Assembly (NCBI GenBank): GCA_946478915.1
Contig: CAMLER010000002.1
Coordinates: 1-28,143, forward strand
Direction of reading: 5' to 3'
Length of the DNA: 28,143 bases
Source of the DNA: an uncultured Chryseolinea sp.
GTDB lineage: Bacteria > Bacteroidota > Bacteroidia > Cytophagales > Cyclobacteriaceae
Shown here: positions 15,867 through 22,151 of the stretch, one piece after another
Layout: each line of letters starts with the position of its first letter
Numbering within the stretch: position 1 is the stretch's first letter
Program-made: the position numbers and the translations under genes
Notes under the pieces: generated by a model
What the model saw: the letters and a program-made list of their open reading frames with translations, nothing else
Database searches by the model: none
What the model was told of the DNA's origin: nothing

Positions 15867-17099
15867 ATGGCCTGGAGATGTCTGGTATTCACTTTCTTTT
15901 TCTTACTCGTGATCGAAGCTCCATGCCAACATCTGGGATTCGCATTAACGAACGGCAAGAAGAAAGTCCAGATTCCAATCGAGATTTATAATAACCTGGT
16001 GGTTGTTCCAGTGGTGCTTAATGACGCGCTGCCGCTGAAATTCATTCTTGATACCGGTGTTCGCACTACGATTCTTACCCAAAAAACATTTTCCGATATT
16101 CTTAATCTGCCATATGCTCGCAAGTATACCATCTCCGGTCCAGGGGGAGATAAATTGGTGGATGCGTACGTTACAAACAACGTAACCTTAGATTTGCCCG
16201 GCGTGAGCGGTCGTGGCCACGCCATGCTTGTCTTAGCCGAAGATTATCTTGAGCTGCGAAATTATCTGGGAACCGATGTCCATGGCATATTAGGGTATGA
16301 GTTATTTAGCAGGTTTATTGTTGAGATTGATTATCAAAAAAAGCTTCTGACGTTGATGACTCCGGATCGCTTCCGGAAACGCGCTAAATTTGAAGCGTTA
16401 CCAATTGTCGTTGAAGACACCAAACCTTACATAGTCGTCCCGTTGGTTTTAAAGGATGGGACGTCGATGGATGCCAAGCTCATGATGGATTCTGGCGCAA
16501 GCCATGGATTAATGCTTGAGACCACATCGGATCCTCGCATTCAGGTACCGGACAAAACGGTTAGCAGTTTGCTGGGCCGCGGCCTCGGTGGAGCTATCTA
16601 TGGGAAGGTCGGAAGAATTAACTCATTAACCCTCGGCAGCCACAACCTTGAAGGCGTAATTGCAAATTTTCCTGATCCCAACAGTTATGCGGATAGTATC
16701 AAAGTTGGCAACGTATTTAGAAATGGCGCTATCGGTGGTGAGGTGATGAGCCGGTTTACAATCGTTTTTAATTTCCCAAAAGAGCGGGTTTACATTAAGA
16801 AGAATTCAAGCTTCAACAACAGTTTTTACTACAATCTGAGTGGGATAACTGTTAAAGCGATCGGGTCAGCGTTAAACATTTTCGAGGTGACAGAAGTGCG
16901 CGACCAGTCGGCATCTCAACGCGGTGGTATTTTGCCCGGGGACCAAATATTAAGCGTCAATGGGGTTGCTGCATCAAGCCTTGACCTCAATAGCGTTAAT
17001 GGATTTTTCAATAGCAAGCCAGGGCGAAAAATACGGGTAGAAATATCCAGAAAAGGAGAAAAAATTCGAAAGGAATTTCTTCTCCAGGATCAGATCTAG
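15867..17099 (+). CDS. Secreted retropepsin-like aspartyl protease with C-terminal PDZ domain
   Basis: A 410-residue protein with a signal peptide (MAWRCLVFTFFFLLVIEAPC, cut near residue 20; the cysteine is not in a good lipobox). It has two aspartyl-protease half domains in one chain: FILDTGVRTTILT with Asp62 in the first, and LMMDSGASHGLML with Asp208 in the second. Each half is followed by the expected hydrophobic-hydrophobic-Gly turn (DVHGILGYELFSRF and GAIGGEVMSRF). Residues about 330-410 are a PDZ domain (SASQRGGILPGDQILSVNG). Single-chain proteins of this type are found in many Bacteroidota; substrates are unknown. Likely periplasmic. Its stop overlaps the convergent receiver gene by four bases. 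Confidence 0.9.
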   Translation: MAWRCLVFTFFFLLVIEAPCQHLGFALTNGKKKVQIPIEIYNNLVVVPVVLNDALPLKFILDTGVRTTILTQKTFSDILNLPYARKYTISGPGGDKLVDAYVTNNVTLDLPGVSGRGHAMLVLAEDYLELRNYLGTDVHGILGYELFSRFIVEIDYQKKLLTLMTPDRFRKRAKFEALPIVVEDTKPYIVVPLVLKDGTSMDAKLMMDSGASHGLMLETTSDPRIQVPDKTVSSLLGRGLGGAIYGKVGRINSLTLGSHNLEGVIANFPDPNSYADSIKVGNVFRNGAIGGEVMSRFTIVFNFPKERVYIKKNSSFNNSFYYNLSGITVKAIGSALNIFEVTEVRDQSASQRGGILPGDQILSVNGVAASSLDLNSVNGFFNSKPGRKIRVEISRKGEKIRKEFLLQDQI

Positions 17100-17560
17100 T
17101 AGCTGAATTTTAGCAATTCAGTCTTTCTCTTTTGATATATTTTTTGGAGGTACTGTTGTGTCTTTTGAAATTTCAACGAATTCTTAACGGTGTTGTACAG
17201 TGCCTCGGCAGAGAGATTTTGCTTTAACAGGTAGTCTAAAATGCTTCCTGAACCAAGAGCCTCATGGTAGTTCGAGCTCTTTAGCACAGTAATGGGAATA
17301 TGTTTTGTCCTTTTACTACTTGAAAGTCTTTTGATGGTCTCGCGCATTTCAGCGCGCCCAATATTATCGTCGATAAAAATAAAATTTGGATTGAACATCA
17401 CGAGGCGCTCGACGATACCTTTCAGGTCGAATGCAATTTCGATGATGATTTTTTGTGCCCGAACCTGTTTGAGGTGTTCGAGGATCGTACCCAGTTCCAT
17501 CGGATTATTTCCAATGAGAAGAACATTAAGGGGAGTAGAATTTTGTGAATCGGATTTCAT
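17096..17560 (-). CDS. Stand-alone degenerate receiver (CheY-like) protein
   Basis: A 154-residue single-domain protein with the receiver fold pattern: strand LNVLLIGNNP, strand FIFIDDNIG carrying an aspartate at the phosphoacceptor place (Asp64), IPITVLKSSN, and DYLLKQN with the conserved lysine (Lys113). The acidic pair that binds magnesium is replaced by Asn18-Asn19, and the usual Thr/Ser at the end of strand 4 is lysine (Lys94). That makes normal metal-dependent phosphorylation unlikely, so it may be a pseudo-receiver acting by protein contact. The last 30 residues are a lysine- and glutamine-rich helix. No histidine kinase is nearby. The gene is divergent from the FAD oxidoreductase. Confidence 0.75.
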   Translation of the reverse strand: MKSDSQNSTPLNVLLIGNNPMELGTILEHLKQVRAQKIIIEIAFDLKGIVERLVMFNPNFIFIDDNIGRAEMRETIKRLSSSKRTKHIPITVLKSSNYHEALGSGSILDYLLKQNLSAEALYNTVKNSLKFQKTQQYLQKIYQKRKTELLKFSY

Positions 17561-17692: not shown

Positions 17693-18805
17693 TTGAAGAA
17701 CGTAGTTGTTATAGGAGGAGGAATTTCCGGGCTGCTTACTGCTATCCAGATCGTTAATGCTGGAATTCCGTGTTCGGTAATCGAAAAAAAGAGATTTCCG
17801 TTCCATCGCGTTTGCGGTGAATATATTTCGAATGAGGCTGTGCCATTTCTCAAGACTCTTGGGCTGTTTCCTTCGGAATATGCGCCAGCAGACATTAAGC
17901 GATTCCAACTGTCTTCTATTTCCGGGAAAAACGAAATTCTCAATTTGGATCTTGGTGGATTTGGGATCAGCCGTTATCTATTCGACAAATTTTTGTATGA
18001 AAAAGCACAATCGGCAGGAGTAGAATTCTTTCTCGACACAGAAGCACACGAAATTCAATTCGCAGATGATGCATTTCTTGTAAGGACGTCTCGTCAGAGT
18101 CTTGAAGCCCACTTAGTGGTTGGCTCATTTGGAAAGAGATCCAAAATCGATGTTTATCTCAAAAGAAAATTTATTCAGAAACGTTCTCCATATGTTGGAG
18201 TGAAGTATCACATCCGCGCAGATCATCCGCACGACTTGATCGCTTTGCACAACTTCGATGGCGGATATTGTGGTATTAGCAACGTTGAAGATGGAAGAAC
18301 AAATTTGTGCTATCTCACTCATCGCGACAATATCAAAAAATTTAAAAGCATCAGGGAAATGGAGATGGCTGTACTACACCAGAATCCTTTTTTAAAAAAA
18401 ATATTTCTGAATTCCGAATTCTTATTCGATAAACCCGAAACCATCAACGAGATATCTTTTGAAACGAAATCGCCAGTGGAGGATCATGTGTTAATGACAG
18501 GAGATGCAGCCGGGATGATCACGCCGCTTTGCGGAAACGGGATGGCAATGGCGATTCGGTCTTCGAAGTTATTAAGTGATCTCTTAATAAAAAATATCAG
18601 GCAAAATGAGACACGCGATGTTCTTGAAAGGAATTATACACACGCCTGGAATGCGCAATTCAGAAACAGATTATGGTACGGAAGACAAGTCCAGAATCTT
18701 TTTGGAAATCGTACGGCTTCTAACATCGCCGTTAACCTTGCAGTTCACTTGCCATTCGTCGCGAATGCAATGATCAAAGGAACACACGGCGAACCTTTCG
18801 TCTGA
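17693..18805 (+). CDS. FAD-dependent oxidoreductase, geranylgeranyl-reductase type
   Basis: A 370-residue flavoprotein. Residues 4-13 form the dinucleotide motif VVIGGGISG; EKKRFPFHRVCGEYIS (31-46) with Cys41 is the substrate-side signature of the geranylgeranyl reductase/FixC group; VLMTGDAAGMITPLCGNGMAMA (about 267-286) is the second FAD contact. No ATG precedes the GxGxxG motif, so the TTG at 17693 is the likely start. Members reduce isoprenoid double bonds or hydroxylate aromatic rings. With a type III polyketide synthase, methyltransferase and UbiA protein within 4 kb, it is a good candidate for ring oxidation or tailoring in the same pathway; which reaction it performs cannot be told. 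A hairpin (ATCCC/GGGAT, 18805-18820) starts at its stop codon but lacks a T tract. Confidence 0.88.
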   Translation: MKNVVVIGGGISGLLTAIQIVNAGIPCSVIEKKRFPFHRVCGEYISNEAVPFLKTLGLFPSEYAPADIKRFQLSSISGKNEILNLDLGGFGISRYLFDKFLYEKAQSAGVEFFLDTEAHEIQFADDAFLVRTSRQSLEAHLVVGSFGKRSKIDVYLKRKFIQKRSPYVGVKYHIRADHPHDLIALHNFDGGYCGISNVEDGRTNLCYLTHRDNIKKFKSIREMEMAVLHQNPFLKKIFLNSEFLFDKPETINEISFETKSPVEDHVLMTGDAAGMITPLCGNGMAMAIRSSKLLSDLLIKNIRQNETRDVLERNYTHAWNAQFRNRLWYGRQVQNLFGNRTASNIAVNLAVHLPFVANAMIKGTHGEPFV

Positions 18806-19106
18806 TCCCTGTTTTGGGATAGCCTTACCGTTATCAGTCCATCGTATGCGCGAGAACCGCAAGATGACTCAACAAGCGATATGATTCTATATTCAAGTTT
18901 GCGCAGAAAACTCACGTGTACCGATCAGTGAAACTTCGATCACCATTATTTATCCTGATTACGATCGATGATCAATGTTGATTATACTCTACAAGGATGA
19001 TGAATCACTGACTTCTTAATTTTATTAAAAGTGTCTTTCTATCCTACTTACGACTGATTCCTGAATGGGTACATATTTTGTGAGGTAGTATAAAAACTTA
19101 AACACT
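18806..19106. other. 301-base gap with no recognised gene
   Basis: Between the oxidoreductase and the H1-like gene. It begins with the hairpin ATCCC-loop-GGGAT (18805-18820) and contains several short GATCA repeats around 18920-18975, including ATCAA-TG-TTGAT. No open frame longer than about a dozen codons with a plausible start was found, and there is no tRNA-like TTC-loop. A near-match -7 (TATTTTG, 19074-19080) lies 27 bases before the H1-like gene. It may be a long leader or an eroded gene. Confidence 0.5.
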
Positions 19107-19376
19107 ATGGCAAAATATTCAAAAGGAGCTCAAAAAAAAGTAAGAGATGTGATGCGCGAAAAAAAACGCGGTACTTTGAAGAGCGGAAGAAGCGGTAAGA
19201 AAGTTACAAGCCGTAAACAGGCGATCGCTATCGGGCTCTCCGAAGCGCGAAAAAAAGGCGCAAAGGTCCCAAAGAAGGCAGCGAAAAAGACGGGTAGAAA
19301 AACTGCAAAAAAGACAGCCAGGAAAACTGCAAAGAAGACGGCAAGAAAGAGAACTGCAAGTAAAGGCAGAAGATAA
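19107..19376 (+). CDS. DUF6496 protein with histone-H1-like lysine-rich tail
   Basis: An 89-residue very basic protein. Residues 1-55 match DUF6496 (MAKYSKGAQKKVRDVMREKK, LKSGRSGKKVTSRKQAIAIGLSEARKKGAKVPKK). Residues about 56-89 are an H1-like low-complexity tail of KKTARKTAKK-type units repeated about three times. It most likely binds DNA or RNA without sequence preference; other DUF6496 proteins are small nucleoid- or stress-related candidates with no proven role. It sits between the FAD oxidoreductase and UbiA genes of the putative polyketide cluster but is unlikely to be an enzyme of it. The convergent UbiA stop is nine bases away. The repeats are prone to copy-number change. Confidence 0.85.
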   Translation: MAKYSKGAQKKVRDVMREKKRGTLKSGRSGKKVTSRKQAIAIGLSEARKKGAKVPKKAAKKTGRKTAKKTARKTAKKTARKRTASKGRR

Positions 19377-19385
19377 ACTTCAAAG

Positions 19386-20267
19386 TCAATGTAGAAATCT
19401 GGTTCTGTCTATAAACAAGTAGAGGAAGAACAGATTCAAACAAGTAGATGAAACGAAGTTGAGCCACATTGTATGTCTATAGTCGGCTTTGCTTTCATTC
19501 TGATACGTTTGAAAAAACCAGGCTAAGAAGTAGGCGACGACGGGAAAAAGTGTGGCCAAAAAGATCAGGGAGTACTTAAGGGCAAAAGTTTGCAGGTAAA
19601 ATATAAAACCGACCGTTACCACGGTAAACGTCGCCCCGACAAAGTAAAACGTACCTCTTATTCCTAGCATTCTGCTTAGGGTCAGGTCGCCGCGCTTTGC
19701 ATCTTCATCGTGTTGATAAATTTGCGTCATGGGATAGTTTGCCCAAAGCATTATGGTAGATAAGGTTCCAGGTACCAGGACTGTCCAGTTGAATATGGTT
19801 TCAATCCCGAAACCATTTATTCCAACGTAACACATCGCAAAGGTGAACAGCCCCTGAAAAAGGCCAGCAATCAGCCATCCGAGAACAGGAAATTTTTTCA
19901 AACGTATGGAAGGATGGCTGTAAGCCTTTGAGACAAGCCCATAGACAAAAAGCATAATTGCGAATGTTGCATTAAGGAAAATCAGTCCGAATAGAATTGC
20001 AACCAGATCAAACGCGAGGGATAAAAAGTACAGCCCTTTCTTTACGGGTGGCGGATTTTGTAACCCGCCAATACTTTTTTCATCTTTATCAAAATAGCTA
20101 TTATAGCCATTACTTGCCGGATAGAGAAAGAGGTGAATAATTAGAAAGGTCCATAGGATATGAGATCCATTAATATTGGGCGAAATGGCCAAACTGAATA
20201 GAAAAACAGGTAAGAGAAAATATGAAAACGGGATGCGCAGGTGAAGCCAGGACGAGGAAGAGAACAT
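19386..20267 (-). CDS. UbiA-family prenyltransferase
   Basis: An integral membrane protein of 293 residues with eight or nine hydrophobic helices. The two aspartate motifs that bind the prenyl diphosphate through magnesium are present: NSYFDKDEKS (56-65; usually NDxxDxxxD) with Asp60 and Asp62, and QHDEDAKRGD (184-193) with Asp186 and Asp188. The YSHPSIRLKKFPVLGW loop (115-130) is also typical. The usual NDxxD has NS, seen in other diverged UbiA members. These enzymes attach an isoprenoid chain to an aromatic ring or a small lipid acceptor. It is divergent from the type III polyketide synthase with only 70 bases between, so a shared control region is likely, and its acceptor may be the synthase product. 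Confidence 0.88.
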   Translation of the reverse strand: MFSSSSWLHLRIPFSYFLLPVFLFSLAISPNINGSHILWTFLIIHLFLYPASNGYNSYFDKDEKSIGGLQNPPPVKKGLYFLSLAFDLVAILFGLIFLNATFAIMLFVYGLVSKAYSHPSIRLKKFPVLGWLIAGLFQGLFTFAMCYVGINGFGIETIFNWTVLVPGTLSTIMLWANYPMTQIYQHDEDAKRGDLTLSRMLGIRGTFYFVGATFTVVTVGFIFYLQTFALKYSLIFLATLFPVVAYFLAWFFQTYQNESKADYRHTMWLNFVSSTCLNLFFLYLFIDRTRFLH

Positions 20268-20337
20268 TGGAAAATTTTTGAGACGTCGGTTTGAACAGCT
20301 TTCCCTAAATTATAGTTTTTTGAAATATATCGTATAA

Positions 20338-21441
20338 ATGAGTTACATCACGGCGATTGGGACTGCTAACCCCCAATACAGAATTAGTCAGTCTACAATT
20401 GCTGATTTTATGGTTAAGGCGATGCAACTGGGCCAAAATGAAACCCGGTTGCTGCAAACCATCTTCCGATCCAGCGGGATCGATTTCCGACATTCGGTTT
20501 TGGCTGACTATGGTTTGAAGGAGGATTTCACATTCTATTCGAACGCTTCGGATTTTGAACCATTTCCAACGACAGTAAAAAGGTTATCCTCCTTTAGACA
20601 AAATGTTGTTGGGCTTAGTTCGCAAGCCGTGGATAACATGCTGTTGACAGTTCCTGCCTTCGATATCCAATCCATTACACACCTCATCGTTGTTTGTTGC
20701 ACAGGAATGTATGCACCGGGTCTTGATATTGATTTGGTTAAGAAATATGGTTTGTCATTGTCAGTTCACCGGACGGGAATCAATTTCATGGGATGTTATG
20801 CTGCATTCAATGCGTTAAAAGTGGCGGATGCCTTTTGTCATCGCGATGCAGACGCCAAAGTTTTAATTGTCTGTACAGAGTTGTGCAGTTTGCACTTTCA
20901 GAAAAAAGCAACGGAAGATAACTTGCTGGCAAATGCACTATTTGCAGACGGATCAGCGGCCATATTGGTAGAGGCTCAAACACGCCAAAACCGAAGACTC
21001 AGGCCGATCGGCTTCCACAGTGAGTTGGTGCCTAAAAGCGATCAAGACATGGCCTGGACCATCGGTGACCTTGGATTCGAGATGAAACTGTCCACCTATG
21101 TACCATCCATCATTAAGGATGGCATTGGAGAGCTTACACAAACGTTGCTCAAAAAAACCTCTAAAGATCTTTCTGACATTCGTTATTTTGCCATTCATCC
21201 GGGTGGTAAACGCATCTTAGAAAACATAGAAAAGGAACTTCGGATTCCCAGGGAAAAAAATCAGGCTGCACACTTTGTTCTTCGTAACTATGGCAATATG
21301 TCGTCGCCAACAATTTTGTTTGTGTTGAATGAAATTTTTAAGGCACTGGTGCATGGCGACAACGACGAATACATTTTGAGCTTTGCATTCGGTCCAGGAT
21401 TAACGTTGGAAAGTATGGTCTTGCAAATTGAAATTGATTGA
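20338..21441 (+). CDS. Type III polyketide synthase (chalcone/stilbene synthase-like)
   Basis: A 367-residue homodimeric condensing enzyme that extends an acyl-CoA starter with malonyl-CoA and cyclises the chain, usually to a resorcinol, pyrone or phloroglucinol. The catalytic triad is visible: Cys153 in INFMGCYAAFNAL, His287 in YFAIHPGGKRIL, and Asn320 in NYGNMSSPTI. ADGSAAILVE (203-212) and the closing FAFGPGLTLESMVL also fit. Length is normal for the family (350-400). The gene is followed two bases later by a methyltransferase and diverges from UbiA, so these form a cluster. The starter cannot be read from sequence; a fatty acyl starter making an alkylresorcinol or pyrone would be the default guess for bacteria. 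A near-consensus -33 TTTG (20290-20293) is present, but the -7 is imperfect. Confidence 0.95.
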   Translation: MSYITAIGTANPQYRISQSTIADFMVKAMQLGQNETRLLQTIFRSSGIDFRHSVLADYGLKEDFTFYSNASDFEPFPTTVKRLSSFRQNVVGLSSQAVDNMLLTVPAFDIQSITHLIVVCCTGMYAPGLDIDLVKKYGLSLSVHRTGINFMGCYAAFNALKVADAFCHRDADAKVLIVCTELCSLHFQKKATEDNLLANALFADGSAAILVEAQTRQNRRLRPIGFHSELVPKSDQDMAWTIGDLGFEMKLSTYVPSIIKDGIGELTQTLLKKTSKDLSDIRYFAIHPGGKRILENIEKELRIPREKNQAAHFVLRNYGNMSSPTILFVLNEIFKALVHGDNDEYILSFAFGPGLTLESMVLQIEID

Positions 21442-21443
21442 AT

Positions 21444-22151
21444 ATGCCGGACTTTTCCACCAGGTCAACTAGCCCTGAAATAATGGATGATCTGGAATGT
21501 TCGGGGGAGGTACTTAACCAAACTCTGCGCGAACTGGAGTTTATCAACAAGTGGCTTGGCGGAAACCGAATCACAATAAGCGCAATTGAGCAGTTATGCA
21601 GGAAGGCTCCAGGCAGGGAAATTACTATTGTAGATCTCGGATGCGGAGGTGGTGAAATGCTCCGATTGATCGATGCATGGGGCAAAAAGAATAATCTTCA
21701 GTTAAAACTCATTGGCTTTGATGCCAATCCCAACGTTGTTGCATTTGCAAAGAAAAATATTGCTGACTGTCCCCATATTTATTTTAAAGCTGTCAATGTT
21801 TTAAGTAGCGAATTCTTTCAAGAAGAATATGACATCGTAATTGGTACACTTTTTTTTCATCATTTTAGTGATGATAAGCTAAAGAATTTTTTTAGCAAGC
21901 TAGGTAGAAGCGTGAGACTGGGCTATATAATTAATGATATCCACAGGCATTGGCTGGCGTTTTATTCGATTAAACTTTTAACGATTCTTTTTTCCCGATC
22001 GGCTATGGTCAAATATGATGCACCTTTGTCTGTTCTTCGTGCTTTTAAAAGAAAAGAACTAGCGTCCATATTGGGGCAGGCCGGTGCGGCTCACGTTTCG
22101 ATTCGCTGGTGTTGGGCATTTCGGTGGCGAGCGATAGTCCACGCTTTTTAG
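21444..22151 (+). CDS. Class I SAM-dependent methyltransferase
   Basis: A 235-residue Rossmann-fold methyltransferase. Motif I is IVDLGCGGGEMLRLI, motif II acidic loop is IGFDANPNVVAFAKKN, and the post-II strand is YDIVIGTLFFHHFSDD. ATG 21444 is preferred over the TTG at 21438 because it is the only ATG and lies two bases after the polyketide synthase stop, so the two are co-translated. The next helical part (YIINDIHRHWLAFYSIKLLTILFSRSAMVKYD) resembles small-molecule C- or O-methyltransferases. By analogy with bacterial type III synthase clusters, it probably methylates the polyketide ring or a hydroxyl; the exact position is not known. Confidence 0.9.
   Translation: MPDFSTRSTSPEIMDDLECSGEVLNQTLRELEFINKWLGGNRITISAIEQLCRKAPGREITIVDLGCGGGEMLRLIDAWGKKNNLQLKLIGFDANPNVVAFAKKNIADCPHIYFKAVNVLSSEFFQEEYDIVIGTLFFHHFSDDKLKNFFSKLGRSVRLGYIINDIHRHWLAFYSIKLLTILFSRSAMVKYDAPLSVLRAFKRKELASILGQAGAAHVSIRWCWAFRWRAIVHAF

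Follow-up and report, generated by a model that had tools for sequence, protein, structure and literature searches.

Does a UbiA-type prenyltransferase gene that adjoins a type III polyketide synthase gene serve the pathway of that synthase, and what would such a pathway make? The question is raised by a 28,143-nucleotide stretch of DNA from an uncultured Chryseolinea sp. (GenBank assembly GCA_946478915.1, contig CAMLER010000002.1, positions 1 to 28,143), hereafter called the window. It encodes a type III polyketide synthase (PKS), an S-adenosylmethionine (SAM)-dependent methyltransferase (MT), a membrane protein of the UbiA superfamily and a flavin adenine dinucleotide (FAD)-dependent oxidoreductase (Table 1). 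All four were confirmed in the arrangement first annotated. We consider it probable that together they form a dedicated unit whose product is a phenolic or quinone lipid that is prenylated, methylated and oxidised. The initial annotation had proposed the UbiA protein as a pathway partner, and this proposal is strengthened by co-occurrence with the PKS, by linkage and by dependence on the PKS type.

We used a profile (A1) built from 15 PKS-adjacent UbiA proteins to search 395 Bacteroidota genomes, with up to six candidates scored per genome. Tier 1 comprises 26 genomes (345–441 bits) and tier 2 comprises 34 genomes (127–160 bits); after a gap, the next band (51 bits or less) holds 86 genomes with generic UbiA proteins (in G098 a fragment). 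The proteins of the two tiers, which are taken as one subfamily based on their sequences, are found in 60/395 genomes. All 60 have a match to PF02797, one of the Pfam domains of the window PKS, and none of the 205 genomes without such a match contains the subfamily. Leaving out the 12 tier-1 genomes that seeded the profile, the agreement is 48/48 (hypergeometric, 2e-18, kinship ignored). As a control, PF02797 is matched in 16/86 genomes of the weak band versus 190/395 overall (187 over the cut-off; a single match in 185). Concerning linkage, the UbiA gene lies within 4 kb of the PKS gene in 20/26 tier-1 genomes (8/14 among those that did not seed the profile), and the linked orders in the sampled loci are UbiA>PKS>MT>FAD (seven), <UbiA PKS>MT>FAD (one) and FAD> <UbiA PKS>MT (three), where arrowheads give the direction. 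The subfamily is never found without the PKS, whereas the PKS is often found without the subfamily, as expected of an enzyme that tailors the products of some PKSs.

There is also a difference between PKS types. One hundred of the PF02797 loci, hand-picked down the list, were fetched and grouped by their neighbours (Pfam names of neighbour clusters come from one member each). Group I (33 loci) contains PKS, MT and a FAD_binding_3 protein, with a MatE-type gene upstream in 23; group II (14 loci) is defined by a UbiA gene adjacent to the PKS gene; group III (21 loci) has MT and PKS followed by FabA-like and ketosynthase genes, with the FAD gene upstream in 20/21; group IV (10 loci) has the PKS followed by an ICMT-type methyltransferase; group V (seven loci) has the PKS with MT and window-type FAD genes and no adjacent UbiA; 15 loci are unclassified. 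The UbiA subfamily is present in the genomes of 21/33 group I, 14/14 group II (by definition), 3/7 group V and 3/15 other loci, and in those of 0/21 group III and 0/10 group IV loci. Based on the profiles, an MT gene lies within 7 kb of the PKS gene in 74/100 loci, and PKS, MT and FAD genes are all found within 7 kb in 34/100. In a PKS tree made by a quick method (SH-aLRT support only), a branch with support 99 separates group III from the rest, and a weakly supported one (77) does so for group IV; the UbiA group is scattered over several branches. Some members of group III (L109, L113, L114, L116 and 17 more) also have SDR and ACPS-type genes, as if a dedicated acyl starter were made. In group IV (L097, L108, L111 and seven more) the ICMT-type identity was taken from Pfam on one member; the pairing calls to mind Bacillus BpsA/BpsB.

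A genome scan with the window PKS as query gave 15 related loci, which belong to Chryseolinea, Fulvivirga, other Cyclobacteriaceae or Flammeovirgaceae, and one ‘Bacteroidia bacterium’; the nearest named relatives are Chryseolinea, with PKSs 75–76% identical. The divergent UbiA gene adjoins the PKS gene in all 15; on the 3.2-kb contig L014 it is broken in two. The MT gene follows the PKS gene in 14, the exception being L014. The FAD gene is found in the fetched stretch of 11; its distance is greater by some 4 kb in L003, and in L001 it is split over two frames. According to the initial annotation, its reading would fall if the four genes were not kept together in related genomes. The unit is conserved in the relatives, so this outcome did not arise, but the claim holds only in part for the FAD gene, which is missing near 4/15 loci.

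Concerning the UbiA protein, both its PF01040 score (64.5 bits; cut-off 34.2) and its predicted UbiA fold place it in the superfamily, and its divergent position next to the PKS gene was confirmed. In 169/169 subfamily sequences (120 of these are top profile matches), QxxxD takes the place of DxxxD in the second Mg-binding motif, so that the window protein lacks the DxxxD form of the second Asp-rich motif of the superfamily. The Asp is kept at this site in the controls from tier-1 genomes (MenA 3/3, TIGR01475 proteins 3/3). The tier-2 proteins have QxxxD in 14/14 cases and NS[YWF]WDxD in 11/14, the frames of the other three being trimmed before that site. In the 14 tier-2 loci fetched (L152–L165), the UbiA gene is flanked by two genes conserved in 14/14 loci each; the members tested were a divergent gene of 299 amino acids without a Pfam or NCBIfam match and a Thioredoxin_9-like gene.

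The menaquinone prenyltransferase question was examined in the 26 tier-1 relatives of the window genome, all of which have separate menaquinone genes. In 16 of them MenA and MenB score over the cut-off; the remaining 10 encode two PF02621 proteins (futalosine route) and, at other sites, a TIGR01475 prenyltransferase. The subfamily is therefore not the menaquinone prenyltransferase (MenA or MqnP) of these genomes. The genomes with futalosine-type genes and no MenA match are G039, G396, G007, G128, G156, G305, G022, G258, G017 and G132; the other 16 are the exact reverse. An identity as EboC/Ubi-297 was also rejected, since the motif is QxxQxxxD instead of DxxDxxxD and ebo neighbours are absent: the 20 window proteins scanned gave no Pfam match of the TatD or dehydroquinate synthase type.

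The claim of a type III synthase with an intact triad was borne out: PF00195 (89.8 bits) and PF02797 (98.6 bits) are both above the cut-off, and Cys, His and Asn are present, the Asn within a GNMSS motif. The DpgA model NF042429 gives 151.3 bits, under its cut-off of 425, and the nearest solved structures are 4b0n, Steely1, stilbene synthase 1z1e and PKS18. An aromatic residue (F/Y/W) occupies position 284 in the window PKS and in 28/29 PKSs of the UbiA group. In ArsB (resorcinol maker) and ArsC (pyrone maker), one position holds Trp and Gly, respectively, according to the available part of PMC9927152; we take it to be equivalent to residue 284. The MT matches PF13649 (46.3 bits), and NF004851 scores 142.6 bits, under its cut-off of 243. 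Its start codon (ATG, 21444) lies two bases past the PKS stop codon (21439–21441), as first annotated.

The FAD protein matches PF01494 (49.5 bits), and its best NCBIfam match is TIGR02032, with 101.9 bits. The curated cut-off of 158.8 is not reached, and membership of this geranylgeranyl reductase family was thus rejected. Its AlphaFold2 (AF2) model has a pLDDT of 88, and the solved folds within the best 50 include the halogenases ChlB4 and PltA, 3-hydroxybenzoate 6-hydroxylase, the geranylgeranyl reductase (GGR)-like 3oz2, PqsL and UbiH. The signature of flavin-dependent halogenases is WxWxIP; this motif is absent, the WVWQIPI stretch of a halogenase being aligned with YCGISNV in the window protein, and a halogenase was not retained. 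The protein is better explained as a ring hydroxylase or oxidase than as a geranylgeranyl reductase. A homologue 42% identical to it sits in a FAD-MT-PKS operon (L113) of a genome without the UbiA subfamily, and the earlier call of a geranylgeranyl reductase is accordingly not supported. The distance of the flavoprotein gene from the PKS gene (2.6 kb, start to start) stands; the description ‘geranylgeranyl-reductase-type’ holds at superfamily level only.

In the proposed route, the PKS would condense an acyl starter with malonyl-CoA into an aromatic ring, the likeliest being that of an alkylresorcinol or resorcylate. The membrane UbiA protein would add an isoprenyl group to the ring, drawing on the diphosphates that are also used for menaquinone; the MT would methylate a ring carbon or oxygen, and the FAD enzyme would hydroxylate or oxidise the ring to a hydroquinone or quinone. 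Every step, as well as the order, starter, donor and product, is proposed, the chemistry by analogy with known trios (hierridin, the planctomycetal cluster and polyketide quinones).

The PKS-MT-FAD trio is of an established kind (srs/pkq/hid type), and the tied UbiA gene is the variant. The window encodes PKS, MT and oxidoreductase together, and the comparison of such a trio with phenolic lipid and quinone clusters made in the initial annotation is supported by the accessible parts of PMC10896814 and PMC9927152. The srs (Streptomyces griseus) and pkq (Mycobacterium smegmatis, Streptomyces MNU77) units likewise combine a type III PKS, an MT and a hydroxylase or oxidoreductase (PMC9927152, PMC5916927, both in part); ‘prenyl’ does not occur in the former text and ‘UbiA’ does not occur in the latter, and the window differs in that its FAD gene is separate and convergent with UbiA. 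The hidABC genes (hierridin, cyanobacteria) and the planctomycetal operon contain the same three kinds of gene, but in the order MT-FAD-PKS; C-methylation is the probable task of the MT in Gimesia, and the role of the FAD enzyme is left open there (PMC10896814, in part). The chemistry of the hierridin trio is covered in the available sections of PMC8086630, where a prenyltransferase beside the trio is described for a single Raphidiopsis cluster, which the authors regard as unique in their survey. Beyond the Bacteroidota, the three genes are found together in each of the five plasmid regions opened (Psychrobacter, two Deinococcus, Roseomonas and Paludisphaera), and none of these has a UbiA gene annotated next to the trio, the gene table being incomplete. 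The FAD and MT proteins of the Paludisphaera set are 27% and 24% identical to those of the window. The Psychrobacter urativorans plasmid (L166) contains PKS, FAD and MT genes, and its PKS is 46% identical to that of the window, the highest value among the 30 of 172 plasmid matches listed.

These plasmid trios, together with the 86/100 sampled Bacteroidota loci that have no UbiA within 7 kb, would be expected if the window held an ordinary cassette of PKS, MT and FAD enzyme whose UbiA neighbour acts on something else. We regard this as rather unlikely in view of the complete co-occurrence, the several linked gene orders and the absence of the subfamily from two PKS types. A comparably low probability is given to an alkylpyrone as the synthase product, decorated by the other enzymes of the set: alkylpyrones are known products of type III PKSs, as in a conserved myxobacterial cluster (PMC12766979, in part), and it is the aromatic residue 284, as in ArsB and not ArsC, that argues for a resorcinol. 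This argument is weak, since the ICMT-linked PKSs have F or Y there as well (10/10). Less likely still is a FAD enzyme that reduces the prenyl chain, as in MenJ or GGR, and gives a product with a saturated isoprenoid tail. TIGR02032 is indeed its best NCBIfam match and some relatives are labelled ‘menaquinone-9 beta-reductase’ by one source, yet the score is under the curated cut-off and homologues of the same BLAST cluster occur in 20/21 ketosynthase-linked loci, whose genomes have the UbiA subfamily in 0/21 cases; the single such homologue compared is that of L113. Equally improbable, in our judgement, is a UbiA protein that acts in the pathway but is no classical prenyltransferase, with QxxxD pointing to another donor, a cyclase or a docking protein; the Gln in place of the first Asp of motif 2 throughout the subfamily, with Asp kept in 6/6 MenA and TIGR01475 controls, is what favours it.

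Several observations weigh against the dedicated four-gene unit that we prefer. With the first Asp of motif 2 absent, prenyl-diphosphate transfer is not assured. The UbiA gene is away from the PKS gene in six tier-1 and all 34 tier-2 genomes (in tier 2 on another contig or far off, positions compared by eye), and the 14 fetched tier-2 loci share another conserved block around it. The subfamily is not found in 130/190 PF02797 genomes, including those of 12/33 group I loci; the PKS thus often does without it, although some UbiA proteins were possibly missed at six candidates per genome. The correlation of PKS and UbiA pairwise distances (rho 0.82; 27 loci and the window) speaks for the unit, but linked genes that are inherited together would show it in any case (PKS-MT 0.83, UbiA-MT 0.83), and the co-occurrence statistics ignore shared ancestry. 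Also, no FAD gene was found in L004, L006 or L007, where 5.7–7 kb upstream of UbiA were covered.

Plant meroterpenoid pathways also use a UbiA enzyme and a flavoenzyme, and no methyltransferase is known in their core route. They give prenylated polyketide phenols with a type III PKS (cannabinoids, daurichromenic acid), in lineages unrelated to that of the window (PMC8309193, PMC5037138, both in part). The myxobacterial alkylpyrone cluster BGC0001831 is, like the window, a conserved bacterial type III PKS cluster; ‘UbiA’ does not occur in the available text of PMC12766979. EboC/Ubi-297 of marine Flavobacteria is likewise a Bacteroidota UbiA-like enzyme outside the characterised groups, but has a DxxDxxxD-like motif and an ebo cluster, whereas the window protein has a type III PKS as neighbour (PMC9235831, in part). 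The groups of that survey are MenA, Ubi-297/EboC, DGGGP-synthase-like and heme O synthase; the window subfamily may lie inside the DGGGP-synthase-like group, and ‘type III polyketide synthase’ does not occur in that paper. Bacteroidota genome papers list type III PKS clusters with no product named in the parts available (PMC10752948, PMC11225308, PMC12565237). No paper on a type III PKS with UbiA in Bacteroidota was found in the literature searched, which leaves most subscription journals outside.

We tentatively suggest, at somewhat less than even confidence, that about one in seven of the sampled Bacteroidota genomes (60/395) make an undescribed class of membrane meroterpenoids, prenylated polyketide phenols or quinones, through a UbiA clade with a rebuilt Mg site (QxxxD). 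A type III PKS is matched in roughly half of the sampled genomes, and of these roughly one in three has the matched prenyltransferase; the survey thus points to a defined class of product that can be tested, and to cultured taxa for doing so (Fulvivirga, Chryseolinea). If true, the suggestion would give bacteria an equivalent of the plant logic of type III PKS and UbiA, standing beside menaquinone and perhaps giving a second redox lipid; with a redox-active prenylquinone as product, the polyketide-quinone idea would extend past Actinobacteria. The altered motif raises the question of how a prenyl group is transferred when the second Mg site lacks one of its Asp residues.

Table 1. Positions of the four genes and neighbouring features in the window
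Feature	Positions	Strand	Remarks
FAD-dependent oxidoreductase	17693..18805	+	TTG start; class A monooxygenase / geranylgeranyl reductase / halogenase superfamily
UbiA-superfamily membrane prenyltransferase, unnamed subfamily	19386..20267	-	N56-SYF-D60-x-D62; Q182-x-x-Q185-x-x-x-D189
UbiA/PKS divergent intergenic stretch	20268..20337	.	70 bases; from coordinates
Type III polyketide synthase	20338..21441	+	Cys153/His287/Asn320; PF00195 and PF02797
Class I SAM methyltransferase	21444..22151	+	ATG start; PF13649
DUF6496 small protein	19107..19376		Lys/Ala/Arg-rich; between FAD and UbiA genes
Aspartyl protease with PDZ domain	15867..17099		upstream of FAD gene
Small open reading frame	17096..17560		no Pfam match; just upstream of FAD gene

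The stretch between the UbiA and PKS genes presumably holds the putative promoters of both. The DUF6496 gene, which lies between the convergent FAD and UbiA genes, was found by tblastn in only two of the 15 related loci (L001 and L002, the closest relatives). The aspartyl protease/PDZ gene and the small open reading frame are each found in 9/15.

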